Assembly: GCF_030316135.1 (NCBI RefSeq)
Contig: NZ_CP128185.1
Span: 2,356,001-2,420,000 of the forward strand
Length of the DNA: 64,000 nt
DNA from: Aliiglaciecola sp. LCG003
GTDB taxonomy: Bacteria > Pseudomonadota > Gammaproteobacteria > Enterobacterales > Alteromonadaceae
Direction of reading: 5' to 3'
Part shown: positions 1-16,327 of the stretch, piece by piece
How the letters are laid out: every line of letters begins with the position of its first letter
Position numbering within the stretch: position 1 is the stretch's first letter
Program-made: the position numbers and the translations under genes
Notes under the pieces: model-generated
Database searches by the model: none
What the model saw: the letters and a program-made list of their open reading frames with translations, nothing else
Told to the model about the DNA's origin: nothing

Positions 1-337
1 TTAAATAAACGCGATCACCAACAAGTTCTCCTTTGTCATTATGATATTCAACCTGAATACCTTCGATTAATTGACGATGAAATGTTTTGTTAGCAACAGC
101 AGTATTGGCGTGATACTGCCTTAACTTCGTTATGGCATCCTCACGAGCCGACTCAGGTATCCCTGAGTTAATGTCTTCTATTGCTTTTCTTAGTCTGCCT
201 AATAGCATGACTTCACTAAGTGAATCTCGCTCTGGTGATGCACTCGTTGGGTCTATTTTAGAACCATGAAGAGTCTGATAGCCGATGCTGTCAAACCACT
301 CCATACATTCTGTTTCTAATTGATCTTCGTTTACCAT
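1..337 (-). CDS. hsdR: Type I restriction enzyme R subunit, N-terminal part (cut by window edge)
   Basis: Begins with an ATG at 337-335 preceded by an AAGGTG ribosome-binding site and runs off the left edge, so about 112 N-terminal residues are visible. They include an opening typical of HsdR (MVNEDQLETECMEWFDSIGY) and the stretch around FHRQLIEGIQVEY that precedes the nuclease domain. In the family this subunit carries the PD-(D/E)XK nuclease and the DEAD-type translocase that pumps and cuts unmethylated DNA. It lies 36 bp downstream of hsdS in the same direction, as expected of an hsdMSR operon. The catalytic domains lie outside the window, so intactness cannot be judged. Confidence 0.9.
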   Translation of the reverse strand, partial: MVNEDQLETECMEWFDSIGYQTLHGSKIDPTSASPERDSLSEVMLLGRLRKAIEDINSGIPESAREDAITKLRQYHANTAVANKTFHRQLIEGIQVEYHNDKGELVGDRVYL

Positions 338-373
338 TTTTACACCTTATTATTCTTTTTATTTCCCTGTGCA

Positions 374-3257: not shown

Positions 3258-3288
3258 AAGAAACTTTACCTTTTGTTTGTGCTATGAC

Positions 3289-3305
3289 ATTAAATCCGAT
3301 TTAAT
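3289..3305. promoter_or_regulatory. 17-bp palindrome upstream of hsdM
   Basis: ATTAAATC-C-GATTTAAT is a perfect 8-1-8 inverted repeat, 32 bp upstream of the hsdM start in the divergent hsdM/RHH intergenic region. The position suits an operator controlling restriction-modification expression. The binding protein is unknown; the adjacent ribbon-helix-helix protein is a candidate. Confidence 0.5.
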
Positions 3306-3381
3306 CTTATTAAGTCACAGTAACTTAAATTCTTTTTTACTGCCAATTACATTACAAAATTAAGCTTGTTATGTCAAGTAA

Positions 3382-3398
3382 TGTTATGTAACATAACA
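3382..3398. promoter_or_regulatory. 17-bp palindrome upstream of the RHH gene
   Basis: TGTTATGT-A-ACATAACA is a perfect 8-1-8 inverted repeat, 40 bp upstream of the RHH start at 3438. It has the same 8-1-8 geometry as the palindrome before hsdM but a different sequence. It shares the outer TGTTA/TAACA bases with the TGTTAC-N3-GTAACA sites further left to right in the island. Probable operator or promoter element. Confidence 0.5.
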
Positions 3399-3437
3399 AA
3401 TGTATTTAATAAAATTAATAATATTGGAAATCTTATT

Positions 3438-3602
3438 ATGGCTGTTGGTAAATCAGGTCGTGTAGTTGTCGAAATTGACCCTGAACTAAAAGAGCAATTG
3501 CATAAAGCAATAAAGATGCAAGGCAAGACTTTAAAAGAGTGGTTTGAAGAAAAGGTTAAGCAAGACTTTCCAAATTTAAAGTCGAGTGCCGATAAAGAGT
3601 AA
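3438..3602 (+). CDS. Small ribbon-helix-helix (Arc/CopG-like) DNA-binding protein
   Basis: A 54-aa protein starting at ATG 3438, chosen because a GGAA motif lies upstream and the RHH fold begins immediately. A further-upstream start at 3366 would add 24 residues running through the palindrome at 3382-3398. The strand GRVVVEIDPELKEQLHKA followed by KTLKEWFEEKVKQDF matches the beta-strand, helix, helix layout of MetJ/Arc repressors. It is transcribed divergently from hsdM. A role as regulator of the restriction-modification genes or of the neighbouring palindromes is an inference. Confidence 0.7.
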   Translation: MAVGKSGRVVVEIDPELKEQLHKAIKMQGKTLKEWFEEKVKQDFPNLKSSADKE

Positions 3603-3609
3603 AACTATC

Positions 3610-3651
3610 TCTGAATTAAATGTTACGTGGTAACAGTAATTTTAATTCAGA
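3610..3651. promoter_or_regulatory. Nested palindrome containing a TGTTAC-N3-GTAACA site
   Basis: The outer arms TCTGAATTAAA (3610-3620) and TTTAATTCAGA (3641-3651) are a perfect 11-bp inverted repeat. Between them lies TGTTACGTGGTAACA (3621-3635), a complete copy of the island's 5-3-5 palindrome. It starts 8 bp after the RHH stop codon, between two convergent genes, so it may act as terminator, as operator, or both. No run of T follows on the plus strand. Confidence 0.5.
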
Positions 3652-3717
3652 AACTTTTATAAGTATGAATAAATTCAATTAATGACTAGGGCTGTATAAA
3701 CCTATAGTAAAATTGAA

Positions 3718-3738
3718 GCTTGGCTCCAAGGGCCAAGC
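3718..3738 (-). terminator. Weak hairpin downstream of the Phd-like gene
   Basis: GCTTGGC and GCCAAGC form a 7-bp stem around a 7-nt loop. Read on the minus strand it is followed by TTCAATTTT, so it could end transcription of the Phd-like gene whose stop is at 3776. The T tract is interrupted, so efficiency is uncertain. Confidence 0.4.
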
Positions 3739-3750
3739 GAGGAATGATAA

Positions 3751-3774
3751 TAACATTTAATGTTACCATTTAAC
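3751..3774. promoter_or_regulatory. Overlapping palindromes: TAACATT-T-AATGTTA and an imperfect 5-3-5 site
   Basis: A perfect 7-1-7 inverted repeat covers 3751-3765. It overlaps GTTAC-CAT-TTAAC (3762-3774), a one-mismatch copy of the GTTAC-N3-GTAAC palindrome. It abuts the stop codon of the Phd-like gene. A binding site is likely by similarity to the other copies, but no gene start lies directly downstream. Confidence 0.4.
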
Positions 3775-3775
3775 G

Positions 3776-3964
3776 CTAATTGTTATGTAAGCTTGTGCTA
3801 ATGCTATGACTACTCAGAAACTTTATAGTTTCTTTATACTCTTCAGCAGAAATCATAACAGCAACACGTTTACCATCTTCCATAATTTGAACATGCTCAT
3901 TGTGTATTTTAGATAGCATCTCATCAAAAGTATTTTCAACATCTCGAACATCTAAAGTTTTCAT
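3776..3964 (-). CDS. Phd/YefM-like antitoxin, no partner toxin seen
   Basis: A 62-aa protein with the Phd/YefM pattern: an opening MKTLDVRDVENTFDEMLSKI, a central VQIMEDGKRVAVMISAEEYKE strand-helix and a short C-terminal tail. These proteins normally neutralise a Doc, YoeB or similar toxin and repress their own operon. A strong GGGGGAA ribosome-binding site precedes the ATG, and a 5-3-5 palindrome lies 21 bp upstream of it. No toxin-sized reading frame follows within the 173 bp before the convergent RHH gene. It may therefore be an orphan, act as a stand-alone repressor, or counter a toxin encoded elsewhere. Confidence 0.65.
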   Translation of the reverse strand: MKTLDVRDVENTFDEMLSKIHNEHVQIMEDGKRVAVMISAEEYKETIKFLSSHSISTSLHNN

Positions 3965-3984
3965 TATTCCCCCATTTAATTTTT

Positions 3985-3997
3985 GTTAGTAGGTAAC
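3985..3997. promoter_or_regulatory. 5-3-5 palindrome before the Phd-like gene
   Basis: GTTAG-TAG-GTAAC has one mismatch to the GTTAC-N3-GTAAC consensus. It lies 21 bp upstream of the Phd-like ATG (minus strand), the same position as the site before the next gene. Likely operator overlapping the promoter. Confidence 0.5.
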
Positions 3998-3999
3998 AT

Positions 4000-4398
4000 T
4001 TAATTTGATTCTTTATCATTTTTATCAATCTCAACGTCAATACGCATAAATGCTTTATCATCTACAAATGCCACTTCACCAACTTTAAGTTCTTCTAGTT
4101 CAAAAGGTAGTCTACTGATATTTTCGTGAGCTAATGTTACGCCTTTAAACTTCCTATTTGCTCTATCTTTTCTAGCCACAATTTCACTCGCTTTAATAGT
4201 TTTATTCACATGCTTAGAAGACTGCTGAGGTAATGCGACAACAGAATCACAGCTATTGCAAACTGCGACCAGTACATTCTCAACCATAGCTGAATTATCA
4301 CTTAGTGCTACGTCACGTTTCATAAATGTTGTATCAACAACAGATTCGCATTTATGACATATTGCTTTGCTATTATCACCTGCTTTTGCAGTTTTCAT
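4000..4398 (-). CDS. Small protein with paired CxxC motifs (zinc-ribbon-like), function unknown
   Basis: A 132-aa protein. CHKC near residue 15 and CNSC near residue 48 form a four-cysteine zinc-ribbon layout, loosely like the N-terminal domain of MqsA-type antitoxins. A basic stretch (about residues 65-85, rich in K and R) and a C-terminal beta-rich part follow. I do not recognise the family. It has its own perfect 5-3-5 palindrome 19 bp upstream of the ATG, so it is probably a separate transcription unit under the same control as its neighbours. A regulatory, DNA- or protein-binding role is the most that can be inferred. Confidence 0.55.
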   Translation of the reverse strand: MKTAKAGDNSKAICHKCESVVDTTFMKRDVALSDNSAMVENVLVAVCNSCDSVVALPQQSSKHVNKTIKASEIVARKDRANRKFKGVTLAHENISRLPFELEELKVGEVAFVDDKAFMRIDVEIDKNDKESN

Positions 4399-4416
4399 AA
4401 CTACTCAATTATTTAT

Positions 4417-4429
4417 GTTACATGGTAAC
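4417..4429. promoter_or_regulatory. 5-3-5 palindrome before the zinc-ribbon gene
   Basis: GTTAC-ATG-GTAAC is a perfect 5-3-5 inverted repeat, 19 bp upstream of the start at 4398 (minus strand) and just past the stop of the upstream gene at 4431. The spacing places it over the expected promoter, which suits a repressor operator. Confidence 0.55.
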
Positions 4430-4430
4430 G

Positions 4431-4817
4431 TTAATCTTTATTAAAACTATTCAGTTCAGATTTAAGTTTTTGAATAGCTCTAATCTTGTTAAACGACTGA
4501 TACTTCTCATTGTTGTAGCTAGCAGTAGTACCAGTTGGCTTGTGGGTAACAGATACACCTTTCACAGCACTACCAATAGTGTCATGAGGTGAAGCACAAG
4601 TATCAAACTGTAGGTCTTCCTGCTTAACATTCATTGATTTCAATAAGCTTAAATACTCCATTGTATCCGTATCGCAATCAAGATGCTCTTCACATCTCAT
4701 CATTATCATTTTTCTAATTCCGCCCTGTTTATCCAATGACGGGGTAATAATTTCTGTTTTGATATTAATATGTTTCTTGTGACATGCAGAGCATTCTTCA
4801 TCTTTAATTTCTGTCAT
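4431..4817 (-). CDS. Small cysteine-rich protein, function unknown
   Basis: A 128-aa protein opening with a CSACHKKH motif and a second Cys/His group about 35 residues later (MMRCEEHLDCD), suggesting metal binding. The C-terminal half is hydrophilic and ends in a helical KxRAIQKLKSELNSF stretch. The start overlaps the end of the preceding 187-aa gene by 14 bp, so the two are translationally coupled and probably act together. I do not recognise the family. Its zinc-finger-like look parallels the following gene, but sequence similarity between the two is not obvious. Confidence 0.5.
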   Translation of the reverse strand: MTEIKDEECSACHKKHINIKTEIITPSLDKQGGIRKMIMMRCEEHLDCDTDTMEYLSLLKSMNVKQEDLQFDTCASPHDTIGSAVKGVSVTHKPTGTTASYNNEKYQSFNKIRAIQKLKSELNSFNKD

Positions 4818-5367
4818 TGTGTTTCCTAAGTTCGAATACCTTATTTGCTAACTCATTCCAGCTCTTAGCATTTAATAAATTTTTAAGATGCAATAACTTC
4901 ATATAGGCATCATAACTGAATTCAATTTGTCTGGAATCACTATTAGCTTTTTTATACTCTTGCTGTCTTAAGCGGCTGTTATATCGCTTCCAAAGTCGAT
5001 CTGGCAGCTTACTAATGACAGATTGAAACTCTTCTATATCTTCAGCCTTAACGACAGGAATTCGTCCCTTAAGTTCGTCAATTACCGCTTGAATTTCTGA
5101 CTTACTTTTTGAGGAACTATTAACAGATTCTATTTTTTTATTAACATTTCCAAAGCTTTCTAGCAATCTATCTTTATTACCAGTTGTTTTTGAAAGTCTA
5201 TCATGAAGGTTGTTTAAATAGTCAGTGAAGTATTTTTCCTCATCATACGTATCTAATGAACCAAATAACTGCTTGAAATACTGTGGATTGTGATAAAAAT
5301 CCATAACAATTTGAATGATTTTATCTTCACTCATCTGGCGAGCCGGGCGACCACGTTTACTACTCAT
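4804..5367 (-). CDS. Putative DNA-binding protein with AT-hook-like N-terminus
   Basis: A 187-aa protein. The start at 5367 is chosen because AAAAGGA precedes that ATG and the protein then opens with MSSKRGRPARQ, an RGRP AT-hook-like motif; an earlier start at 5397 lacks a ribosome-binding site. The middle is helical and charged. The C-terminus (RQIEFSYDAYMKLLHLKNLL) has a strand followed by helices, resembling a ribbon-helix-helix end. Two palindromes of the island family precede it, so it is a candidate autoregulator of this palindrome network. Family not recognised. Confidence 0.5.
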   Translation of the reverse strand: MSSKRGRPARQMSEDKIIQIVMDFYHNPQYFKQLFGSLDTYDEEKYFTDYLNNLHDRLSKTTGNKDRLLESFGNVNKKIESVNSSSKSKSEIQAVIDELKGRIPVVKAEDIEEFQSVISKLPDRLWKRYNSRLRQQEYKKANSDSRQIEFSYDAYMKLLHLKNLLNAKSWNELANKVFELRKHNDRN

Positions 5368-5415
5368 GTAGATTCCTTTTAAAAAATAATACAACATTAT
5401 AGTCGATTATTTATT

Positions 5416-5453
5416 GTTACCAAGTAACTTTAAAAAACATATTACCGGGTAAT
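5416..5453. promoter_or_regulatory. Tandem 5-3-5 palindromes, 25 bp apart
   Basis: GTTAC-CAA-GTAAC (5416-5428) and ATTAC-CGG-GTAAT (5441-5453) are each perfect 5-3-5 inverted repeats, with starts 25 bp apart. They lie 49 and 74 bp upstream of the ATG at 5367. The tandem arrangement resembles a cooperative repressor site at the head of the small-gene cluster. Confidence 0.55.
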
Positions 5454-5509
5454 AAAAAGCATTTTTATTTAGCAAGTTTGGGGTGGTTCAAGTGAATAAG
5501 TTAGAGCAG

Positions 5510-7684
5510 CTAAAAAAGTGAGTTTAAAATATACCTTAAGCCCGTTTTACGCTTTTCTGTTGCCCCTTTCTTTCGCATCGCTTTTTCAAAAAAAGATTTA
5601 GGTCCCACAAGATGCACTTCTTTTTCTGCCCTTGTTATTGCCGTATATATCCAGTTTCTATCTACACCTACAGAGTCAATGATTGGGACAATTATTCGCT
5701 TGAATTGACTGCCTTGAGCTTTATGCAAACTCATGCAATACGCAAGTTCTACTGTCTTAATTATATCGTGATACAATTTGATTTTTTGGTTGCTGTCAGC
5801 CAATAGAACCTCTCCTAGATGTCTACCATCAGCTTGAGTAATTAATTTACCAACAGTTCCATTTTGTACATCTAACTCAAAATTGTTTTTTGTAAAAATA
5901 ACTGGGTCATTAATTTTCAATGGTGAATTAACATACTGATCGAGGAACGGATATCTCAAATTATCACTATCCAAATTTGTAGCTTTCTGGCAAAGTTCAT
6001 TTAGAATGTTTATTCCCGCTATCTCTGGGGTATATGCTGGAGAAACTATTTGACTCCCCTTTGGTTGCAGTTCATATAATTCAACACATAATTTATTTAT
6101 CTGCTCTATTTCCACACAATGAAAATGTACATTACCATAGCTCAATTTGCTTGGTATTATTCCTTTCGCAATTAAATTACTATACTCAGGTATTCCGCTG
6201 CTTTTTTCTTGCCTCTTAACTGCGTCAAGCTTACAGTTTGTCACCCTTCTACTGTAGATTAGATCGTTTAATATTAAACCGAGGTCTATAGGTGGTAATT
6301 GATTTGGATCTCCAACGAGTAATATGCGGGTGTCAGGGTTTATATGATTTATCAGCTTAAACATTGTCGAAACGTCTAACATAGACGCTTCATCAATTAT
6401 CAAAACATTCTCTTTCTCATGACTCAATAAATTGGGTTCAATGGGTTTGTCATGTAATAGCCTTGCAATCGTGGTACTTTTATAGCCAGTAGATTCAAAC
6501 ATCCTTTTTGCTGCACGACCTGATAATGCAGCACAGTGAGGTAAGATATTTAATACTTTATATCCTGCAAGAATTGCCTTAAGTACTGAAGTTTTTCCTG
6601 TTCCAGCCCCTCCAGAAACAATACATATTTTAGATTTTAATGCTTTATATATTGCCCTAACCTGACCTAGCGATAACTTGAAAGGTAATGTCTTTAATGC
6701 GCACCTAAACGCAAGTTTAAATTTAGCGTTTTCTAATTCACTAGGTTTCCATTCAGTTAAGTATTTAACTCTTAGAGCTATTGATTTTTCTTTAACATAT
6801 GATGCTGATGCTTGGTAAGTTTCTTGCTCTCTGTTGAATATAACTACCTTTTTATAAGATTGTTTCTGAACACATTCAAATGCTTTAGAGACGAGAGCGC
6901 TACTCTTTAGTAGTACTTCTAACCTTCTTGTTAAATTACTCTTACTTGCTACCGTGTGCCCCGATTTTTCATGCTGTTGAATAGCGTGATGAAAAGCAGC
7001 TGTTAACCTTCTATCATCATCGTTAGCGATATCAAATTTTTCTTTCGCAATGTGATCAACGGTTGAAAAGTCCAAATCGAATATTGACAGTACATAAGGA
7101 TTATTATTTATTTGCTCAAACGTTTCCTTGCCATGATATTTTAGCAGACGTTGTTGGATTGGAATTGGTATTCCAATTTCTACAAGCCATTGTGCATATT
7201 TAAGATTAGAGTACTTTTTAAAGCCATCAATTAGCTTTTTTACTTTGGTATTGCTTAATTTCTTACTAAGAAGCTCTTCATTCTTGTCATAAACATGTTT
7301 ATAGATATTGTTACCAAAATCCCCCCATATACTCCTTGCCGTGTCTGCGGATATCCCTTTAAAGCTGGGTTCACGATCAAGTAACCAAACAAAACCTTCT
7401 TCATCATCAGGCATGACAAAACACAAACTTTCTGGGTTTTCATAATAGCGATGAAGTTTATTATAATTACCAACCTTGTCCTCTGAATACCCTTCTACGT
7501 TCCAGTGTTGCCCAATCAGTGGCTCAAGAGGAACTAGACTATTTTTTACATTAATAAAAACAATTCGCTTGCGGTCTCCATTATAATTACCTTTTTCAAT
7601 TGGCACACCGCTAAATGAAAGCAGCTTTTCATCGCACTGATAAATTTGAGTTACGCGAATTAAAAGGCTTGTTTTATTAATCAA
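5510..7684 (-). CDS. RecD-like SF1 DNA helicase of the island
   Basis: A 724-aa protein. The N-terminal 330 residues are unlike standard RecD. The helicase core then follows: Walker A SGGAGTGKTS near residue 357-366, Walker B IIDEASML near 430, GDPNQLPP, and a UvrD-like C-terminal module with LHKAQGSQF and YTAITRAEK. This order matches RecD2/TraA-type 5'-3' helicases. It is the last gene of the island's mobility operon and its start overlaps the stop of the 163-aa gene by 4 bp. A role in processing or replicating the element's DNA during transfer or integration is inferred from context; a defence role is an alternative. Confidence 0.85.
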   Translation of the reverse strand: MINKTSLLIRVTQIYQCDEKLLSFSGVPIEKGNYNGDRKRIVFINVKNSLVPLEPLIGQHWNVEGYSEDKVGNYNKLHRYYENPESLCFVMPDDEEGFVWLLDREPSFKGISADTARSIWGDFGNNIYKHVYDKNEELLSKKLSNTKVKKLIDGFKKYSNLKYAQWLVEIGIPIPIQQRLLKYHGKETFEQINNNPYVLSIFDLDFSTVDHIAKEKFDIANDDDRRLTAAFHHAIQQHEKSGHTVASKSNLTRRLEVLLKSSALVSKAFECVQKQSYKKVVIFNREQETYQASASYVKEKSIALRVKYLTEWKPSELENAKFKLAFRCALKTLPFKLSLGQVRAIYKALKSKICIVSGGAGTGKTSVLKAILAGYKVLNILPHCAALSGRAAKRMFESTGYKSTTIARLLHDKPIEPNLLSHEKENVLIIDEASMLDVSTMFKLINHINPDTRILLVGDPNQLPPIDLGLILNDLIYSRRVTNCKLDAVKRQEKSSGIPEYSNLIAKGIIPSKLSYGNVHFHCVEIEQINKLCVELYELQPKGSQIVSPAYTPEIAGINILNELCQKATNLDSDNLRYPFLDQYVNSPLKINDPVIFTKNNFELDVQNGTVGKLITQADGRHLGEVLLADSNQKIKLYHDIIKTVELAYCMSLHKAQGSQFKRIIVPIIDSVGVDRNWIYTAITRAEKEVHLVGPKSFFEKAMRKKGATEKRKTGLRYILNSLF

Positions 7685-8172
7685 AGTACACCATTCACTT
7701 CATTTATGACTTGAATAGTCTCCCTATGCCGTCCAACTTCTTCACTAGCTGTCTTCAATTGAAACTCCAGAGCAGCAATTTTTTTGTTAAGTGAAAACAC
7801 CTCATTTTCTAATTGTGCATTTCTCTTAAGCAGTGCCTTATTGGTTTTATTCATGTCATCAACTAAAACAGGATCACTACAATTTTTATTAACACCCCCT
7901 TTAACACTGCTCACTGGAGTTTCTTTATCTACTAGGAGATTGCTAGCTATTAGGTCTTTAACTATTTTTTCTTCAAATTTTTCAAATGCTTTTATCAACT
8001 GAGGGTTTCCGTTCTTGGGTTTCAACGCCCCATAACCAAATCCAGCAGATTCTGCAACAAGCTGTTTATTTAACTTGTAAGTATTGAGGTTAATAAAAGA
8101 CAACAACTCATTCAGATCTAAATCTTTATGCCAATCATTGAACTTACTAATATTTACTTGAGCGTCAGCCAA
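7681..8172 (-). CDS. HTH/coiled-coil accessory protein of the recombinase operon
   Basis: A 163-aa protein. The first 70 residues contain a helix-turn-helix-like segment (LNKQLVAESAGFGYGALKP). Residues about 105-155 form a heptad-patterned coiled coil (ALLKRNAQLENEVFSLNKKI). This N-terminal DNA-binding plus coiled-coil design is common in partner proteins of tyrosine recombinases on mobile islands. It lies 20 bp downstream of the 432-aa recombinase gene and overlaps the helicase gene by 4 bp. It could be a recombination directionality or DNA-bending factor. The family is not firmly recognised; it may correspond to one of the non-recombinase partners in trio-type elements. Confidence 0.6.
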   Translation of the reverse strand: MADAQVNISKFNDWHKDLDLNELLSFINLNTYKLNKQLVAESAGFGYGALKPKNGNPQLIKAFEKFEEKIVKDLIASNLLVDKETPVSSVKGGVNKNCSDPVLVDDMNKTNKALLKRNAQLENEVFSLNKKIAALEFQLKTASEEVGRHRETIQVINEVNGVL

Positions 8173-8192
8173 ACTTTCCCCCTCACAGTTTA

Positions 8193-9491
8193 TTAAAAAA
8201 CTTCATGTAACACAGAATCATATTTTTCAACACAAGATACTGCATCAAATGATTCTTTAACAAGTTCATTGACTTGTCCTTTGTGGGCAATAACGATTAA
8301 TTTAGCCATATCAATATAATGTTTATAAGTAGTGGCAATGTCCTCGTGTCCCATTTGTTGCATAACAACTTCAGCAACCGCTAAATACAAGACATTGGTT
8401 TCTTCAGTCAGCAGTTTTTCTTTGAATGTACGAATCATGAACATAGTGGGCCACCAATCTCTAGCATCATAAAATGTCGTCCCTTCTCTAAATTCAGGGT
8501 GATTTTTAATTGCTAAGTTTTTTGCATCGCTTCCTCTAGAAGAAACCATAGTCGGAGTAACTGGCTTTCCAAATTTATTTAAAAATAAAATATGAGGAGG
8601 ACATTCCTTACCATATCGTTTTGTATATTTTTCTTTTCTTTCATAGAAATGCTTATTGATATAGTTATTTTCTAATCTTTCAAGATCCTTAATATTGATG
8701 ACAATATCCCTCGATTTGCCCCCCTTGCTGTTAGAAACGTGGTATTCAATTGTTTTCGTGGATTGGTCCATATCGGAATAAGGCATTATATGACTGTTAG
8801 AACCCGTTCCAATGTAAGGAAATCTACATAAATCTATGGGTCTCATCGCAGTCCCTAAACACAGCATAAATATTGCATCGTAAACTGGATCGTTAAATGA
8901 CTCCCTAAACCAGTTAATTTCATTTTGCGAGATCAAAGTCTTGTTTTTTTTCTGCCTACTTTCTTTGTCTAATACCGTTACATTCTTGGCATCAATAGAT
9001 ACTTTTGCTTTTTTCGATATATAATTTAATAAGCTGTCGTTTCTAAAGTTCGCTTTCCACTGCTTCTTTTTTACCTGAACACATGTTGGATAACCTGACT
9101 CATTAAGCCAGTTAAAAAATACCAAAAGTGCTTGGGCATCTTCATAAATTGATTTTGAAGTCGGCTTAACAGACTGAGATTTCACTCGTTCTATTTGTCT
9201 GTGAATTTGCCACCTTTTGATGTCGATATTCGAAGCTAAAACATGATATTCAGATAAATCTTTACCTTTAAACTTATCTAACGTTGAAAGAAAGGTATAG
9301 AACTTGGTAATGACAGAAGAATAGCGATTAGAAGTTTGAATTGAGTTATTGCAACTATAACTTAAAAATAAATTTGGATGGCTAAGTAACGTTTCTCGGT
9401 TCTTTGACTTTTCAATAATCAAATGGTGAGAAATTGGCTTTCCTGTTTCAAGGTGAATGTAATTCTCTACTCTCCTATATAAATTTAACAA
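8193..9491 (-). CDS. Tyrosine recombinase (432 aa)
   Basis: An N-terminal SAM-like core-binding domain (residues 40-150) is followed by a catalytic domain with the expected residues. These are Arg in GTAMRPIDL (about R217), Lys around SNSKGGKSRD, Arg in YDARDWW (about R344) and His in QQMGHEDI (about H382). The nucleophile is Tyr in TTYKHYIDMAK (about Y392). The HxxR motif is altered to DARD, which is tolerated in some families. It should cut and rejoin DNA at the element ends. It lies 1 bp after the 325-aa gene. Its likely job is to act with the larger recombinases on the att site in tmk, as TnpA does beside TnpB in Tn554. Confidence 0.9.
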   Translation of the reverse strand: MLNLYRRVENYIHLETGKPISHHLIIEKSKNRETLLSHPNLFLSYSCNNSIQTSNRYSSVITKFYTFLSTLDKFKGKDLSEYHVLASNIDIKRWQIHRQIERVKSQSVKPTSKSIYEDAQALLVFFNWLNESGYPTCVQVKKKQWKANFRNDSLLNYISKKAKVSIDAKNVTVLDKESRQKKNKTLISQNEINWFRESFNDPVYDAIFMLCLGTAMRPIDLCRFPYIGTGSNSHIMPYSDMDQSTKTIEYHVSNSKGGKSRDIVINIKDLERLENNYINKHFYERKEKYTKRYGKECPPHILFLNKFGKPVTPTMVSSRGSDAKNLAIKNHPEFREGTTFYDARDWWPTMFMIRTFKEKLLTEETNVLYLAVAEVVMQQMGHEDIATTYKHYIDMAKLIVIAHKGQVNELVKESFDAVSCVEKYDSVLHEVF

Positions 9492-9492
9492 A

Positions 9493-10470
9493 TTACTCCC
9501 CCTGTTGAACTTTAAAGTGAGTCACTTCATCAAAACCATCTGTTAACTTAGGCAATTGCATTTTATCTGCCATCTCAAATTCCTCTTGAGGCACATGTGA
9601 AAAGTGAAACTTTCTTTGCGCCTTTGCAACTATATCGCTCTCAGTTACAGGAACCCATATAGAAATATGACCTTTGCTTTTAATTTTATTTAGGTAAAGT
9701 CTAAGCTCAATCGTAGAATAAACAGGTAGACTAATGACGATTACATCCCCGCCAAAATTTTGTTTAACTCTTGATAAAAAGGTTGAGACCTGACTCAGAT
9801 ACCGTTCAATAAAAATAACAATTCTAACTTTTTTGTTTTCAGGTAAAGCCTGAACTTTTAGTATCACTTTCTCGATAGCTAAATCTTTTTCTTCTTCAAA
9901 AACATCCATATCTTTTGTTTTCAAAAAATTTTTAAAAACGGCTAACAACTCTGGCTCAATATGGATAACGTTACTTTCAACATAAGTTTCTATATTTATT
10001 GATAACATTTTAGCTTCTAGTGTCACTAAATCATTTTTCAATTTTTTATTATCTTTAACTAGTTTACTAAAGTGCAATGCTTGCTTTTCCATCGCTATAC
10101 GAACTTCATCAGCTTCATGCAATGCAATATCATTGTTCATCATTGTCGTGAAAACTCTGGCTTCTACATCCTTAATTTCTTTTTGGTGAAATACGAGCTG
10201 CTGTCGTAGCTGTTCCTTTAAGTTTTCAATAGTGGTGTAAGAATTTTGGAGTAAAAGCGCTACTGTTTCATCATCTTCACTTTCATTGTCCAATAAGTCA
10301 GTATATGGATTCTCGCCTTTAATATATGGAACTAAATCGTCTAAATCTTGATAAATATACTGCCGTGATTTGCCAATTTTTTTAGCCGCAGATGTAATAT
10401 TTAATTTTTTGGTGTCTGTTCCAGAATAATGCTCGATGATTACTTGGATAAGTTTTTGTCGAGTACTCAC
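9493..10470 (-). CDS. HTH/coiled-coil protein between recombinase genes
   Basis: A 325-aa protein. The N-terminus has a helix-turn-helix (ITSAAKKIGKSRQYIYQDLDDL, residues 24-45). The middle is a long coiled coil (about 75-165). The C-terminal 120 residues look like a compact alpha/beta domain with alternating hydrophobic strands (VRIVIFIERYL, DVIVISLPVY, GHISIWVPV). It overlaps the 677-aa recombinase gene by 4 bp (ATGA) and is followed after 1 bp by the 432-aa recombinase, so it is an integral part of the mobility operon. A DNA-binding assembly factor for the recombination complex is the best guess; no family name is certain. Confidence 0.65.
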   Translation of the reverse strand: MSTRQKLIQVIIEHYSGTDTKKLNITSAAKKIGKSRQYIYQDLDDLVPYIKGENPYTDLLDNESEDDETVALLLQNSYTTIENLKEQLRQQLVFHQKEIKDVEARVFTTMMNNDIALHEADEVRIAMEKQALHFSKLVKDNKKLKNDLVTLEAKMLSINIETYVESNVIHIEPELLAVFKNFLKTKDMDVFEEEKDLAIEKVILKVQALPENKKVRIVIFIERYLSQVSTFLSRVKQNFGGDVIVISLPVYSTIELRLYLNKIKSKGHISIWVPVTESDIVAKAQRKFHFSHVPQEEFEMADKMQLPKLTDGFDEVTHFKVQQGE

Positions 10471-12500
10471 GCTAGTTTCTCTTTATCCTGAAAGTTATGA
10501 TTTTTTTGTAGCTTTTCCAAATGCTGCTTTTTAGCCGCAATTTTTTTAATAAGGGAGCTTTTTGCCTTAGCGGAGATTTGACCAATAGTGTTTTCCACTA
10601 AAGATTCATAAAATAAAATATCTTTTTGAATCAACTCTGCTGTTTCTTCAAGAACAACTGCATTTTCACATGCAACATCACAATTAGTAAGTTCTGGGGC
10701 TATACCTTCATAGTAGTCTCTGCCCTGCAAGCAAGGAGGCATTGCCTCTCGTGAAATAGTACCTGAGAATAAGCAGAAATTGCCCAGTGTCGTTCGTTCA
10801 ACATGAAGAGGAACTCCCGATTGCATTAGGTAGATAATGTATTCAAAAACTCGCATTCTAATTAACTTGCCTCTGAAAACCTTATTTTTTTCCTCTTTAA
10901 ACTTTTCGCCGAAACTCTCTGCAAATTTACCAGATGCTTTACCATCTACCACAGCGGTAATAATTTCAGAAAAGTTTTCGGCAAAGTGAACTTCTAGTGT
11001 TGAAGCTACGCTACCAATCATGTAAGGATTTCTGGCAATATACCTTAATGTCATTGTGTAGCTCTTATGACCGAAAAGCATTCTAATGATATCTATATTC
11101 TTCTCTGAACGCTTTATTAATATATCAGCAGTTGTTTTGCGAAGACGATGCGGGTGCAGATCATCAATACCCAGTTGCTCACCTAGTTTTTTAAAGACTT
11201 TTCCAACTGAGCGCTTAATTTTCTTAGCTTCTCTCGATAAATTATTATCAAATATGAACTCACTATCTCTTTCAACTATTTCACTGCGGATTAATTTATA
11301 TTCTTCTACATTTTTACCAAAGAAATTAGGAATTTCTATTGTATCTGTTTCGCCAAAAAAATTAGGATCATCTGTTGTTTTGAATCTCGTAATATCCAGA
11401 AACCATTTATCAACATCCTCTATATACTCAAAATCTGAAAATTTAAGGCTAGATAACTCTCTTAATCTCATACCTGTGATAACCCCTAAAGTTACCAATA
11501 AAGAATTTTTGACTTCGTTAAGTGCTAATCTAAATCCTTTTCTCCAGTTAACCCTCCATCCTTGGTATGTTCGCCCTTTTTGGGTCGTTTCCGTATGATT
11601 TAGAATAATAGAAACAATTGGCTTATCATTAAGCGTTGAAGAGAAAATATCACTAATCTTGCTTAATCGTTGTTCTGTATTCCCTACTATTACTGAAGAA
11701 TTCCAAAGCTTTAACTTTTTTAATTTCTTTTGGATTATATCTAACTCTGGTAGTCCCACCTCAATCCAGTCGATTGAATATGTCATTAAATTCGCAAGCT
11801 CTATCTCAGATAATGGCTTCCAACTATTTACATTTTTAGAAGAATTAACTGTTACTGACTTTCTTCTATCCTTTGTATCAATTTTACTAAGAGTAACGTC
11901 TGATAAAGATAACTCTTTTGGTAAATACCCATCTAGTGATAGGGATAACCAAAAAATTATTCCGTGAAAAAGGAACTCATAGTGTCTTTTAACATTACTT
12001 GCTTCTGCCATGTCTAAAGCTTTATTTAACATTTTAGCTGAAATTGCTTGTATGGAATCTTCAGTAAAATCAAGTCCATTAGGTTCCAGAACATATTCCC
12101 TTATTGCTTTCAACCAAGAATAAAAATATGTATCAGTGGACAACCAACTCGTTATTTTTCCATACGGGTTGTTACCCGGTAGCAAATAATACGTATAACA
12201 TTTAGCAAAAAGTTCCCCTCCTAATACTGAGCTTGACATGATAAACTGATTTCGCCCTAATCTTTGCAACACATCAGAATCCCACCTTTCATCACCAAAT
12301 TTCGATTTATCTGTTACAGGAAAATTTCCATCAGGTCTCTCATTTAACAGTGATAGCAAAGGTACTTTTGATACTTTCTTGTTCTTTGATTTAGAAATAT
12401 TTAATGTGTCTTCGAGACTCGACTGTGCATACTCTAAAGAATCTTCCTCTAGCTGATTTAGTTCCTTTTCGATTAAAGTCTCTAGGCTATATACTTGCAT
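10467..12500 (-). CDS. Large tyrosine recombinase (677 aa) with C-terminal cysteine region
   Basis: The catalytic domain occupies about residues 320-500 and is complete: Arg in TGMRLRELSSL (R345/R347), Lys at about 374 (RFKTT), HRLR (H451 and R454), His in LFGHKSYT (H478) and Tyr in TLRYIA (Y487). A 300-residue N-terminal domain precedes it. A C-terminal tail with a cysteine group (CLFSG, PPCLQG, NCDVAC at about 575-620) follows and may bind a metal. Size and layout recall TnpB of Tn554 or the large integrases of trio-type islands. It overlaps its neighbours by 1 and 4 bp. Confidence 0.88.
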   Translation of the reverse strand: MQVYSLETLIEKELNQLEEDSLEYAQSSLEDTLNISKSKNKKVSKVPLLSLLNERPDGNFPVTDKSKFGDERWDSDVLQRLGRNQFIMSSSVLGGELFAKCYTYYLLPGNNPYGKITSWLSTDTYFYSWLKAIREYVLEPNGLDFTEDSIQAISAKMLNKALDMAEASNVKRHYEFLFHGIIFWLSLSLDGYLPKELSLSDVTLSKIDTKDRRKSVTVNSSKNVNSWKPLSEIELANLMTYSIDWIEVGLPELDIIQKKLKKLKLWNSSVIVGNTEQRLSKISDIFSSTLNDKPIVSIILNHTETTQKGRTYQGWRVNWRKGFRLALNEVKNSLLVTLGVITGMRLRELSSLKFSDFEYIEDVDKWFLDITRFKTTDDPNFFGETDTIEIPNFFGKNVEEYKLIRSEIVERDSEFIFDNNLSREAKKIKRSVGKVFKKLGEQLGIDDLHPHRLRKTTADILIKRSEKNIDIIRMLFGHKSYTMTLRYIARNPYMIGSVASTLEVHFAENFSEIITAVVDGKASGKFAESFGEKFKEEKNKVFRGKLIRMRVFEYIIYLMQSGVPLHVERTTLGNFCLFSGTISREAMPPCLQGRDYYEGIAPELTNCDVACENAVVLEETAELIQKDILFYESLVENTIGQISAKAKSSLIKKIAAKKQHLEKLQKNHNFQDKEKLA

Positions 12501-14539
12501 TAGTCATCCTCAAAAATCACTCTTAATGATCCCATATCAACAGGCAGTAATGAATCAAACTTCCGCTTATATCTTGCCGCTTGTTTTAATGCTTTTTCAT
12601 CTTTCCATTCATTGATAATATATCTAATTACTTGAAGTTCATTTTCCAACTCCGTTGATTTAAATCCATCTGAAGAGTCTAGTAAGCGCACCAGTGTCTC
12701 ATCTCTATCCATGATGAAAGGTAACGAGTCCTCAAAGATACGGACTTGACTACAAAACAAACAAAGTGATATTTCGTTACATTTTGCCCCATCTTTTATA
12801 ATTTTTTCAGCGTTTGGAAAATCAGGACTAAAAGAGTTCCCACACCCCCATAAAGCTCGGTCATGTGAAGGTAAATAAAACATTCTTAATGAGCCAATTA
12901 ATTTTTTAGTAGCTTTATGTTTATGTACGAGACCTTTAAAATTCTTTTTGCGTAATCTTTGTGTAATTTCTTTTAATTCTTCAGAAAGTCTTTCCAATCT
13001 TTTTTGCTGAGCAATAGATGAGTTATCGTAATGGATATCAGTGGTATCAATACTTTCATGGCCTTGTTGCAACGAGACTAACGTTAGTGGACTATTACTT
13101 TCATCCCGAACATATCTAATCCAAGTTGGTCGTAACTTAGGAGTTAATTCTTTTACGCTAGTTATTCGACCTTTAGTATCAAGTATAACTGTTTCACTTA
13201 GTAATTTATTGATTGCTGCTGTGTATATACTCTTTGAGGATATTGAAGTAAATCTGCCAACAGGCTCTTTTTTGTTAATGGATGACTTCGCAGTCATATG
13301 ATTAACACCTCTCATTACCAAAAACAACTCACTGTAATATAAATCACTTGAATTAAAAGACTCTCTACTCAACTTTGATAAAGGTTTAGATAATTTTTTA
13401 GCCAAACGAATCAAATTAAATGCGGAGTACTTATTTGACTTATCAGATGCTGCCAAAAACTGTTTAGGATTAAAGTACGGTAAGTTGCCACTCTGAGATT
13501 TTTCTTTTTCTGCTGTTATCAATAAATGATCGGAATCAATTGAACCAGATAACACATGTTCATAATTATTTGGATCTATTGCAAAAACAGTTTCTTTGTT
13601 CCAACCAGTTTGTAAGCATAAAAATAGTGCTAAAACTGCTTGTTCTTCAGGTTGAGGAAAATATTTGCCTAGCAGCTCGTTTAGTGTTGGTAATGCGACA
13701 AGCTTTTCTTCTATTTTTCGTATACGTCGATGCTGCGCGTGACGGTAAGTAGCATAAATCAAATCTTCTAACGTATTTAGTTTCAATAGGTTAACTGACG
13801 CTGTTTGAACTTTGTCATTTAAAGTTTCATGAAAAATTAAAAAATCGTCAAGAGATATCCCAAAAGGATGATTTATAGATAGAAGCGTTTTTAGAACTCT
13901 TTTTTCATTTGGAATCCAGTACCAATTCCCTTTTATATTAAATTTAGCTTGCTGTTTAATGATTTGTTTTTTTATTTCTTCTATTGTGTAGGGTTCTAAC
14001 TTTTCAACTTCATCTATAAACTCAATTTTCTTATAAAGCTTATCTACCTTACTAACAAATAAGCTTGATAAAGAATTAAATGCCTCTTTAGATAACGGTT
14101 CAGTTACCCTGTTTCTACTAGCGGATTTAAATGTCTTTTCTGAAATAAGCGGAAATCCATCATCATTTTCATTAGCAACTTTTCGCAGTACGCTGAAGAA
14201 ACGAGAATGAGTATCTTTAGGGCATTTATTGGATTTTACATATTGCTCAAATTTCCCCATTACTTCAGGTATGACATCTGTTATTGATGTTAAATGAGCA
14301 CTTTTAGGCATCCCATTTTCATAAGATGCCTTAAAATCTAAAAAAAGGTTAATGCCTGTTCTGAATGAATATGCTCGTGCATAGCTAATGACAGCACCAT
14401 AGCTTACAAAAGCGTAGTGAAGATCTGCATATAGGTCATTATCAAAAGTAAAATCTGAGCGTTCGAGGTAATTACATGGAACAATCCTGCCATCACGACA
14501 CTCAACTTTTGTCGTATCTCTATGAAGTTCTTTATACAT
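12500..14539 (-). CDS. Degenerate tyrosine-recombinase-like protein (679 aa) with C-terminal Cys cluster
   Basis: The catalytic-domain outline is visible but incomplete. The box usually holding the first Arg reads LQTGWNKETV (311-316), with Arg replaced. The HxxR box reads LTPKLRPTW (R470 kept, His lost). GHESIDTTDIHYDN retains H494 and Y504. A C-terminal cluster C566, C587, C593, C596 (CNEISLCLFC) looks metal-binding. It is probably a structural or DNA-binding partner rather than an independent strand-cutting enzyme. It follows the island tmk after 4 bp and overlaps the next recombinase by 1 bp, placing it second in the operon. Confidence 0.75.
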   Translation of the reverse strand: MYKELHRDTTKVECRDGRIVPCNYLERSDFTFDNDLYADLHYAFVSYGAVISYARAYSFRTGINLFLDFKASYENGMPKSAHLTSITDVIPEVMGKFEQYVKSNKCPKDTHSRFFSVLRKVANENDDGFPLISEKTFKSASRNRVTEPLSKEAFNSLSSLFVSKVDKLYKKIEFIDEVEKLEPYTIEEIKKQIIKQQAKFNIKGNWYWIPNEKRVLKTLLSINHPFGISLDDFLIFHETLNDKVQTASVNLLKLNTLEDLIYATYRHAQHRRIRKIEEKLVALPTLNELLGKYFPQPEEQAVLALFLCLQTGWNKETVFAIDPNNYEHVLSGSIDSDHLLITAEKEKSQSGNLPYFNPKQFLAASDKSNKYSAFNLIRLAKKLSKPLSKLSRESFNSSDLYYSELFLVMRGVNHMTAKSSINKKEPVGRFTSISSKSIYTAAINKLLSETVILDTKGRITSVKELTPKLRPTWIRYVRDESNSPLTLVSLQQGHESIDTTDIHYDNSSIAQQKRLERLSEELKEITQRLRKKNFKGLVHKHKATKKLIGSLRMFYLPSHDRALWGCGNSFSPDFPNAEKIIKDGAKCNEISLCLFCSQVRIFEDSLPFIMDRDETLVRLLDSSDGFKSTELENELQVIRYIINEWKDEKALKQAARYKRKFDSLLPVDMGSLRVIFEDD

Positions 14540-14543
14540 AGAG

Positions 14544-15167
14544 CTAATTAATTATTTTATCTAATGTGCTTATCGCATCTCGAACAACAGATTCTAATGG
14601 TTGCAGAGCATCTATCACTGTGAAACGATTGGGAAATTCCTTCGCTTGTTCCAGATATCCTTGTCTTGCTCTTTCTAAAAAGGCAATGTCAACATTTTCC
14701 ATTCTATCTAAACCTTCACCTCTACTTTTAACTCTTTCAAGTCCGACCAATGGTTCCAAATCTAAAACAATTGTCATATCAGGTCTAAAATCGCCTAAAG
14801 CCAAATCATTTAATTGATCTACTATTTCCTTAGGTAAACCTCTACCATACTGTTGAAAACTTACAGTGGCTGATTCAAATCTGTCCGAAATGACATGAAT
14901 ACCTTTTTCTAAAGCAGGGATAATCTTTTCATGGATATGTTGGGCACGTGCAGCGGCAAATAGCATTAATTCGGTAGTGCTACACATTTCGGAATTGGAA
15001 TTATCTAAAAGTATGTCCCTAATTTTTTCACCGATTTCAGTACCACCGGGTTCACGAGTTGAAATATATTCGATCTTGTTTGCGTCTAGATGTTCTTTCA
15101 AATGCTTTAATACTGTTGACTTTCCTGCCCCATTTGAGCCATCACAGACTATTAACTTACCTCTCAT
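14544..15167 (-). CDS. tmk: Island-encoded thymidylate kinase (replacement copy)
   Basis: A 207-aa dTMP kinase, which phosphorylates dTMP to dTDP, an essential step of dTTP synthesis. It has the P-loop DGSNGAGKST (residues 9-18), TREPGGTEIGE, the DRF motif (DRFESATVSFQQYGRG) and the LID-like ESRG...LDRME region (written KSRGEGLDRME). The ATG at 15167 is preferred over a GTG at 15194 because GGTAAGGG precedes it and the N-terminus then aligns residue for residue with the host fragment. Host MSGKFIVIEGLEGA corresponds to island MRGKLIVCDGSNGA. It is the first gene of the mobility operon. It should restore the function lost by insertion into the host tmk. Confidence 0.95.
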   Translation of the reverse strand: MRGKLIVCDGSNGAGKSTVLKHLKEHLDANKIEYISTREPGGTEIGEKIRDILLDNSNSEMCSTTELMLFAAARAQHIHEKIIPALEKGIHVISDRFESATVSFQQYGRGLPKEIVDQLNDLALGDFRPDMTIVLDLEPLVGLERVKSRGEGLDRMENVDIAFLERARQGYLEQAKEFPNRFTVIDALQPLESVVRDAISTLDKIIN

Positions 15168-15200
15168 ACAACCCTTACCATATTTATAAATCACTTAAAT

Positions 15201-15249
15201 CTTGTTTACACTATACACAAAACAAATATACAATCAACTAGTTTACACT
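15201..15249. repeat. 12-bp direct repeats at the island's right end
   Basis: CTTGTTTACACT (15201-15212) and CTAGTTTACACT (15238-15249) differ by one base and start 37 bp apart. They lie about 20 bp inside the junction with host tmk. One overlaps the -10 and the other abuts the -35 of the tmk promoter. They could be recombinase arm sites, autorepressor operators, or both. Confidence 0.6.
15210..15237 (-). promoter_or_regulatory. Predicted sigma70 promoter of the island tmk/recombinase operon
   Basis: On the minus strand TTGATT (15237-15232), a 16-bp spacer and TATAGT (15215-15210) give a good sigma70-type promoter. The expected start near 15203 leaves a leader of about 36 nt before the tmk ATG at 15167. 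It sits inside the island, so the operon carries its own promoter as well as lying downstream of the host fab operon. Confidence 0.55.
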
Positions 15250-15250
15250 T

Positions 15251-15310
15251 TTAACTTTCCGAATATAATGCGCCTTCAAGGCCTTCGATGACAATAAATT
15301 TTCCTGACAT
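15251..15310 (-). pseudogene. tmk: Host tmk, 5' remnant split by the island
   Basis: Twelve bp after the mltG stop an ATG opens a frame reading MSGKFIVIEGLEGA, the conserved N-terminus of gammaproteobacterial thymidylate kinase. The next codons of the P-loop should be GKS or GKT. Instead the frame reads LYSES and stops at 15251. mltG-tmk is the normal gammaproteobacterial order, so this is the 5' end of the resident tmk. The break after codon 14 marks the island junction at about 15,268. Confidence 0.93.
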
Positions 15311-15322
15311 AGATTTTGTATA

Positions 15323-16327
15323 CTACTTATTTTTTAATTGATAGATCCGAACAGCCTGATTGTGCTCTGTTAACGTGCGAGAGAATTGATGAGTACCATC
15401 CCCTTTGGAGACAAAATAAAGCTCTTGAGTGTCCAAAGGATGCAGTGCTGCATCTATACTTAACTTGCTCGGCATCGCTATCGGTGTGGGCGGTAACCCT
15501 TTAATTACGTATGTATTGTAAGGAGTTGCTTGCTTAAGATCCCGTCGGCGAATGTTACCATCAAACTCATCTCCAATACCATAAATCACCGTAGGATCCG
15601 TTTGTAAACGCATATTTTTCCGTAGCCGATTCACAAAGACACCTGCTATACGTGGCCGTTCAGATGCAACGCCTGTTTCCTTCTCTATTATTGATGCCAT
15701 TATCAGAGCTTGATAAGGATCGTCATATGGAAGGTCGCTAGCTCGTTGTTGCCAAGCCTGCTGTAAATAATTATTCATCGCCTGATGGGCGCGCAATACA
15801 ATATCTTCGACTTTGGTGTTGTGGGTAAATTGATAAGTGTCGGGTAACAACCAGCCCTCCAAAGCATTGCCTGCTAAATCGTCGTTGAACAAATCTAACC
15901 ATTCTTGCTGCTCTAGCATCGATGTTTTAAGAGCTGAATGTGTATTTAATTGACTCAACCAATCTCGCCAGCGCAAACCCTCAACTAGACTGATTTGGTA
16001 TGTTTTTTCTTTACCCTGTTGCAGCATTTGAAATACGCTTTTGACACTCATGCCTGGACTAATTTCATAGGTGCCGGATTTTATATGAGATAACTCCGGG
16101 TGTAATTTTAGCGCCATTTTGACTAGCAGCGGCTTTTCTAACAAGGATTGTTCAGCAAGACGATTGATCACAAAATGCGCATATTGACCACGTTTAATAA
16201 TGAGCAATTGCGGCCCCTCTAATCGGATAGATTGATTAAACGCTTGACTAACTTGTTGATGCACCACTATCACGCAAATTGCAGCTATCAGTACTAGAGC
16301 GCTTAACCACTTGAGCATTTTAAACAT
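15323..16327 (-). CDS. mltG: Endolytic peptidoglycan transglycosylase MltG
   Basis: A 334-aa YceG-family enzyme. An N-terminal membrane anchor (residues 5-22) is followed by a LysM-like region. The catalytic domain contains ASIIEKETGVASERPRIAGV with the active-site Glu, and LQTDPTVIYG. MltG cuts nascent glycan strands in the inner membrane and is thought to end their polymerisation. The start overlaps the pabC end by 8 bp. The host tmk start follows 12 bp after the stop, confirming the normal operon order up to the insertion point. Length is typical and the gene is intact. Confidence 0.95.
   Translation of the reverse strand: MFKMLKWLSALVLIAAICVIVVHQQVSQAFNQSIRLEGPQLLIIKRGQYAHFVINRLAEQSLLEKPLLVKMALKLHPELSHIKSGTYEISPGMSVKSVFQMLQQGKEKTYQISLVEGLRWRDWLSQLNTHSALKTSMLEQQEWLDLFNDDLAGNALEGWLLPDTYQFTHNTKVEDIVLRAHQAMNNYLQQAWQQRASDLPYDDPYQALIMASIIEKETGVASERPRIAGVFVNRLRKNMRLQTDPTVIYGIGDEFDGNIRRRDLKQATPYNTYVIKGLPPTPIAMPSKLSIDAALHPLDTQELYFVSKGDGTHQFSRTLTEHNQAVRIYQLKNK

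Follow-up and report, generated by a model that had tools for sequence, protein, structure and literature searches.

Taken together, our analysis supports a model in which a 25,110-bp genomic island of Aliiglaciecola sp. LCG003 splits the host gene tmk, which encodes dTMP kinase, and very probably rescues the cell with a complete kinase of a separate lineage. We studied the island in a window of 64,000 bp (genome positions 2356001-2420000 of the complete, single-contig chromosome of 4,411,932 bp); the whole element occupies genome positions 2346159-2371268 and is bounded on both sides by host tmk sequence. Judged from the sequence, integration destroys the tmk reading frame, the exchange takes place at 6 bp, and the island holds one complete kinase. 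A sequence-only reading of this DNA had proposed that an island splits tmk in its P-loop and brings a substitute; both parts of that proposal hold, as does the interval to which it assigned them (14544-15310).

The split host gene and its replacement

On the minus strand, an ATG at window position 15310, 12 bp past the end of mltG (15323), opens MSGKFIVIEGLEGA and then continues LYSES-stop, at the place where intact congeners have MSGKFIVIEGLEGAGKSS; the match to the host gene ends exactly after GA. The remainder of tmk, GAGKSSAIDTVKRV..., lies 25.1 kb off at genome positions 2345574-2346161, directly upstream of holB, which is followed by tatD. Three congeners (G273, G434, and G460) each carry a single intact tmk in which the split point reads GAAGGCGCAGGTAAAAG or a synonymous version of it, and the ancestral locus in relatives is an uninterrupted mltG-tmk-holB run, as the sequence-only reading had anticipated. 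That reading also named two outcomes to look for, a complete second host tmk and the lack of a 3' remnant: the former was searched for genome-wide and not found, and the latter is answered by the remnant upstream of holB. Thymidylate_kin loci in the whole genome number two: one is the island gene, which is complete (Pfam positions 2-184), and the other is the 3' remnant (6-185). On this sequence evidence, host tmk is cut by the island between two P-loop codons, and because the identical insertion point is also found in a Colwellia genome, the split is not an assembly accident. The 3' remnant contains no stop codon and no excess of amino-acid changes, and it has diverged no more than intact congeners, which would fit either a recent insertion or constraint on the remnant; we give no dN/dS for it, as dS is saturated.

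Read in the sense of tmk and with the 6-bp spacers bracketed, the junctions are GAA[GGCGCA]TTATATTCGGAAAG on the mltG side and GGATATTT[GGGGCT]GGTAAA on the holB side, the far spacer GGGGCT lying at genome positions 2346153-2346158. GTTTACAC/GTGTAAAC repeats are present at both ends, paired 37 bp apart, with AGTGTAAAC repeats at the far end likewise 37 bp apart, and the borders form an imperfect inverted sequence of the TTCGG type.

The island kinase gene, whose 207 aa are encoded at window 14547-15167 and which we term type B to distinguish it from the host type (A), is the first gene of the recombinase operon, from whose next gene it is separated by 4 bp; it scores above the NCBIfam cut-off for dTMP kinase (Table 1) and retains the TREPGG, DRF, and LDR motifs. 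Both target motifs of the island family are changed in type B, which has DGSNGAGK vs EGLEGAGK and SFQHYARG (SFQQYGRG in the window copy) vs AYQGGGRG. The sequence-only reading had suggested that the island gene derives by capture from a host tmk. For the tmk of this host, that idea is not supported: the island protein shows about 40% identity to the host type, compared with 51-61% to type-B genes, and it belongs to a separate clade with other island and plasmid tmk genes (support 100/100, and 99/97 with the plasmid copies added), while the codon-for-codon alignment of the two N-termini, offered as the sign of capture, is ordinary Tmk homology.

The operon continues with a module of recombinase-like and accessory proteins. 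We label its three recombinase-like members RecA-, RecB-, and RecD-like; these are labels of this analysis and do not denote repair proteins. The RecA-like protein retains the C-terminal His/Tyr box (QGH...TTD..Y) and has GWNKET in place of the first catalytic Arg; it gave no match in Pfam, and its AlphaFold model has a mean pLDDT of only 61, with an integron integrase as the best match at E 0.86.

A family of islands in tmk

The module is rare. With the RecB-like protein as query, it was detected in 3 of 395 genomes of the order, and the RecD-like query returned only its own genome among 369 genomes of the class. A scan of 84,980 species genomes gave 7 module loci. With the window counted and duplicates merged, there are seven elements with readable context. 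All seven split tmk and carry a kinase, which is a deoxynucleoside monophosphate kinase (dNMPK) in four and a type-B Tmk in three, and in six of them the kinase gene adjoins the recombinase module. The suggestion of the sequence-only reading that such an element could find its site in many species is borne out to the extent that the recombinase family recurs in tmk of other genera.

Two target sites are used. The window and Colwellia elements share the P-loop site, an operon end that points toward mltG, and a type-B Tmk as the first gene of the operon. In Colwellia psychrerythraea isolate 38_32 (L063, L087) the insertion falls at exactly the nucleotide position seen in the window, the rescue tmk is 61% identical to the window's, the tmk 3' remnant lies ~28 kb away, and the junctions read GAA[GGCGCT]TTATTTTCGGAAAG and CCGAAATTAT[GGCGCT]GGAAAA. 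In G126, a Glaciecola metagenome-assembled genome (MAG; G851), a Kangiellaceae MAG (G350, in which the contig with the tmk 5' half stops short of the junction), and Pseudomonas rubra (G849), the site lies just before AYQGGGRG, the operon end points toward holB, and a dNMPK comes first in the operon; the dNMPK assignment comes from a PF21448 match at 3e-28, run on one of the four, to which the other three are 46-96% identical. Rheinheimera soli (G850) also has its insertion before AYQGGGRG, but there a type-B Tmk stands at the far end beside the tmk 5' half, and no dNMPK was found in this element; nor was any found in the window genome (G000). The window's module is about 30-54% identical to, and in the same gene order as, those of the four mid-tmk dNMPK elements, one of which is in Pseudomonas. 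As far as sequences tell, the splitting of tmk together with its replacement is a repeatable strategy that extends beyond P. putida and employs two target motifs and interchangeable rescue kinases.

Junction spacers as possible traces of earlier hosts

At the second site, the Glaciecola element has TGGTCG at both junctions. Unequal spacers are found in four elements, namely the window, G126 (far GATGCA, near TTATCG), P. rubra (far GCGACG, near GATGCC), and Rheinheimera (far CTTGCG, near TTATCC), and in 4/4 the operon-side spacer spells codons that fit the host Tmk: Leu-Ser in DRHDLSS, Asp-Ala in DRFTDATYAYQ, and, in the window, the GGCGCA of the congeners. The far side in these four elements is a foreign 6-mer that is either not host-coding or differently spelled. 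The 6-bp spacers appear to record earlier hosts. In G126, the far spacer encodes Asp-Ala, which is the text of another Tmk lineage, and these six bases suggest that the element arrived from another kind of host.

Distribution and probable spread of the type-B kinase

In 11 of 119 genomes of the family, the sole tmk beside holB is of type B, nearly always in the order mltG-tmk-holB (loci L040-L046 and L048-L051; a further locus, L127, is in a MAG of another family, G153, and is perhaps a contaminating contig). Relatives of type B are also carried by two Pseudomonas megaplasmids at 48% and 44% identity (FeN3W, L130, CP136011.1; pMPPla107, L131, NZ_CP031226.1), the gene of pMPPla107 having a degenerate P-loop (NGGFKST). 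A scan of IMG/VR with the type-B Tmk gave only viral Tmks of up to 43% identity, and 0/6 of those placed in the tree joined the type-B clade.

In our trees, the copies from plasmids and P-loop islands fall outside the group of resident type-B copies, and the data reject a grouping of the window copy with the residents L040/L041 (p 0.005). In the RpoB tree, the eleven residents fall mostly in one clade (99/97), within which Colwellia G847 is nested, and the native tmk of G847, preserved as the host remnant, is of type A; a tree of MltG plus HolB, both encoded by genes linked to tmk, gives a similar picture. Some genomes in these trees are metagenome assemblies, and we left G472, a MAG taken as mixed, out of the RpoB reading because its RpoB is very distant. 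The type-B and RpoB trees conflict on G006 and on G419/G449. We take this picture to mean that type B has moved horizontally and has taken over the position of the native gene. On these sequence comparisons, type-B tmk seems to be a mobile lineage that has replaced the native tmk in place in eleven relatives; a single early replacement followed by the return of type A in Colwellia is another possible history. When the attB flanks are compared with the two occupied sites, type A differs at a median of 5/24 positions and type B at 9-10, a mismatch that fits immunity, though it is confounded by ancestry. Apart from these genes, G445, G414, and G439 (L124, L125, and L126) have only a very divergent Tmk, 25-28% identical to the island copy, which in G445 and G414 lies near mutS- and recA-like frames with neither mltG nor holB detected, and which is perhaps another replacement.

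Model and alternative explanations

In our model, the tyrosine-recombinase module, comprising the RecA-like and RecB-like proteins, the coiled-coil protein, and the RecD-like protein, would integrate the island at a 6-bp position in the P-loop codons of tmk. As the first gene of the operon, the island kinase would sustain the cell from the moment of entry; this rescue is inferred, the identity of the kinase being assigned by sequence. The island gene would then be the only source of an essential activity, a dependence that the sequence-only reading had proposed and that experiments have demonstrated for the KT2440 analogue (PMC10653934), making the island hard to lose, for its loss would need either the exact restoration of tmk or a rescue gene that stays behind. 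The far-junction 6 bp probably came along from the previous host; the pattern is seen in the sequence and the mechanism would follow that of the SE elements (strand-biased circularizing integrative elements) discussed below. Expression of holB would be kept up through the intact frame of the 3' remnant or by an unseen promoter, and a promoter scan at the island's holB-side end found none facing holB. At that end, both P-loop islands finish with a CAC(T/C)CAC repeat and with an open frame that runs on into the 3' remnant of tmk (L003:6159-6300 and L087:9640-9930), and this arrangement possibly has a role in keeping translation running into holB. In some lineages, as the trees suggest, the type-B gene would have been retained as the resident tmk.

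Could the split host tmk still work, either with a start and an in-frame N-terminus provided for the 3' part by the holB-side end of the island or by assembly of its pieces, with the island tmk as an accessory? The frame is open into the island over at least about 40 codons in both the window and Colwellia (...FTYEKKRIF-GAGKSS and ...FTLKSNRNY-GAGKSS), and the intactness of the 3' remnant described above points the same way. Yet in the fusion the P-loop strand has lost its first Gly and its acidic residue (KRIFGAGKS vs IEGLEGAGKS), a full kinase is present in every readable element, and the open frame is more simply explained by the maintenance of translation into the adjoining holB; moreover, in Pseudomonas putida KT2440 the tmk pieces are dispensable while the island kinase is essential (PMC10653934). 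We therefore consider a working split gene quite improbable. That a lone island landed in tmk by chance, with its own tmk as unrelated cargo, would draw on the fact that phages and plasmids often carry nucleotide kinases, but it is already contradicted by seven readable elements out of seven in tmk with the right kind of kinase, six times next to the recombinase module, and by an insertion point shared to the base between two genera, and we give it practically no credence.

A more serious competitor concerns the origin of the island gene, namely that type B is native to a Colwellia-like clade and was picked up there by the element from a resident locus. It would account for the type-B gene at the resident tmk-holB locus of eleven family genomes that are mostly one RpoB clade, but it sits poorly with the position of the P-loop-island and megaplasmid copies outside the resident clade, with the rejected grouping of the window copy, with the type-A remnant of Colwellia G847 inside that clade, and with the discord between the type-B and RpoB trees; we hold it to be unlikely, though worth keeping in view.

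Beyond the island itself, the data may point to a naturally occurring disrupt-and-rescue system by which core genomes are rewritten, with an element that breaks an essential gene at sites too conserved to change and leaves a rescue kinase that is without the target sites and stays after the island has decayed. We advance this wider reading only tentatively and would not bet on it. It would account for type-B tmk in the native mltG-holB operon across a clade of related genera, and a rescue kinase without either target site would not be breakable by the same island family. Several observations weigh against our interpretation as a whole or against parts of it. In Thalassotalea sp. ND16A the module lies on a 4.8-kb contig, yet tmk is intact and there is no dNMPK, so that this is either a case of another target site or a mixed assembly; G126 and the Glaciecola MAG, which supply two of the seven elements, are closely related, and metagenome assemblies are the source of several contigs; the foreign spacer of the window, GGGGCT, departs from the host's by synonymous changes only; the nesting of residents among island copies is only moderately supported, looser alternatives being rejected by a narrow margin (p about 0.04) and the stem branch being long; and no relic of type-A tmk or of element ends was found at the resident type-B loci.

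If our model is correct, the island is a natural case of a mobile element that becomes indispensable at once, and it offers a testable route to the replacement of an essential gene in place by a mobile relative. The target motifs, the P-loop and AYQGGGRG, are among the most conserved of the enzyme, and it may be possible to read earlier hosts from the spacers. For annotation, a "second tmk" on an island may be the sole functional one, and a "tmk pseudogene" need not indicate an assembly error. Cleave-and-rescue gene drives are engineered systems in which an essential gene is broken and the breaker supplies a differently written copy; here, integration itself does the breaking.

Relation to known elements

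The closest precedent is the 65-kb genomic island of KT2440 (Wirth et al. 2023, mBio), which splits tmk at 294/339 bp and carries a T4-like dNMP kinase (PMC10653934). The island kinase PP_1964 is essential and the sole Tmk activity, the tmk pieces contribute nothing, and deletion of the island succeeds only when another kinase has been supplied (PMC10653934). In using the second conserved motif and a T4-like dNMP kinase, KT2440 goes with the four dNMPK elements above. Compared by description, that island resembles ours in its location in tmk and in a kinase beside two tyrosine recombinases, a regulator-like gene, and a further gene; it differs in that the window has a P-loop split rather than a mid-gene one and a true Tmk rather than a T4-like dNMPK, and the orientation of the window island relative to tmk is the reverse of that of the dNMPK elements examined here. 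With the tmk insertion, a kinase that by its sequence should be able to replace Tmk, and the shared module, but without the dNMPK and the mid-gene site, the window island is best described as a variant of the KT2440-type family. The same work found that other bacteria have dNMPK genes standing alone between mltG and holB (PMC10653934), which parallels the resident type-B genes seen here. Hence, the splitting of tmk with supply of an essential kinase is on record from KT2440, where both the kinase and the site in the gene are different, and this was the only work on islands in tmk that we found in the open-access literature. We did not find described the P-loop target, the orthologous rescue, the swapping of kinases within one recombinase family, the footprints, or the displacement by type B, and consider these new.

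The operon also resembles that of GInts (ginABCD; Bardaji et al. 2017, PMC5385486), which have three tyrosine-recombinase-like proteins, one of them without the first catalytic Arg, plus a non-recombinase protein, and which share with our elements an operon at one end beside variable cargo, a 6-nt staggered exchange, and non-identical junctions. In the window, the RecB- and RecD-like proteins have the full motif and the RecA-like protein, a putative member of this set, has its GWNKET for the Arg box; the 325-aa helix-turn-helix (HTH)/coiled-coil and 163-aa proteins might correspond to the small ginD-type protein that GInts need for movement. GInts, again compared by description, insert in an ABC transporter gene, in ssb, or near a ribonucleotide reductase gene, and no rescue kinase is described for them (PMC5385486).

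SE elements (Idola et al. 2023, PMC10214605) likewise have imperfect inverted ends and a 6-bp spacer that is host-like next to the operon and foreign at the opposite end, as in 4/4 informative elements here. They differ in gene order, which in SEs is intA-tfp-intB-srap, and SEs are not reported in tmk; membership by sequence was rejected, as comparison with the proteins of the pAQU1 SE gave a best blastp E of 0.003 and an hhalign probability of at most 47%. Finally, in the Pseudomonas plasmids pPUV-1 (L241) and pVIM-24-ZDHY316 (L242), distant relatives of all three recombinases occur in the same order at 24-26% identity (hhalign 99.5-99.9%), followed by AAA-ATPase and UvrD genes and preceded by a PAPS-reductase-family gene, with no kinase; no split target was found at that PAPS-reductase gene.

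Features of the island and its surroundings

Table 1. Features of the island and the adjoining host locus in window coordinates.
Feature	Position	Strand	Remarks
Portion of the element within the window	1..15268	.	Extends left to genome 2346159, where host tmk resumes
Type I restriction-modification HsdS + HsdM (cargo)	374..3257	-	HsdR continues left of the window
RecD2-like helicase, 724 aa	5510..7684	-	AAA_30 1.6e-36; 39% homologues after the module in Colwellia and G126 elements
163-aa protein, weak VPA1267-family likeness	7681..8172	-	NF040697 42 bits, under the cut-off of 90
RecD-like, ordinary tyrosine recombinase, 432 aa	8193..9491	-	Phage_integrase 1.9e-7; 47-55% identity across the family
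Module protein, 325 aa, HTH-like N-terminus then coiled coil	9493..10470	-	Same order in all elements (30-38%); no Pfam family
RecB-like, large tyrosine recombinase, 677 aa	10467..12500	-	Phage_integrase 1.8e-16; R...HxxR...H...Y
RecA-like, conserved recombinase-module protein, 679 aa	12500..14539	-	26% identity (6e-24) to an annotated "site-specific integrase"
Island tmk, type B, 207 aa, complete	14544..15167	-	Thymidylate_kin Pfam E 6e-48; NCBIfam dTMP kinase 174 bits (cut-off 83)
Terminal sequence, recA side: TTATATTCGGAAAG border + two GTTTACAC arm-type repeats 37 bp apart	15201..15268	-	Colwellia L063 has the same border (TTATTTTCGGAAAG)
6-bp spacer, recA side, GGCGCA (P-loop Gly-Ala codons)	15269..15274	-	Congeners L009/L010 also GGCGCA
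Host tmk 5' remnant, MSGKFIVIEGLE+GA	15269..15310	-	ORF continues to a stop at 15251; same register as intact congeneric tmk
mltG, host gene upstream of tmk	15323..16327	-	40-47% identity to mltG of relatives' mltG-tmk-holB locus

The cargo includes several defence genes (window 374-3257; L003:8072-15758), namely HsdR/M/S, a GajA/GajB (Gabija) pair, and two ThsB-like TIR proteins with no evident ThsA alongside. A prophage was considered and rejected: the RecD-like protein had no match in 50,697 phage records or in IMG/VR, and the island open reading frames (ORFs) examined are recombination, restriction, and defence genes or genes without an assigned function. We took the VPA1267-like protein as a presumed pointer to the gamma-mobile-trio; an NCBIfam search of the RecB- and RecD-like proteins gave no trio recombinase model. 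A small island ORF at window 4431-4817 has a partial, sub-threshold match to the RF-1 (peptide release factor) domain. The single-contig genome G399 has just one tmk, interrupted so that it reads as two overlapping frames (L052:6783-7401), through a frameshift or a sequencing error. At the island border, window 15242-15269 contains a strong promoter-like match (TTTACA-16-TATAAT, 11/12) that is directed outward, antisense to mltG.
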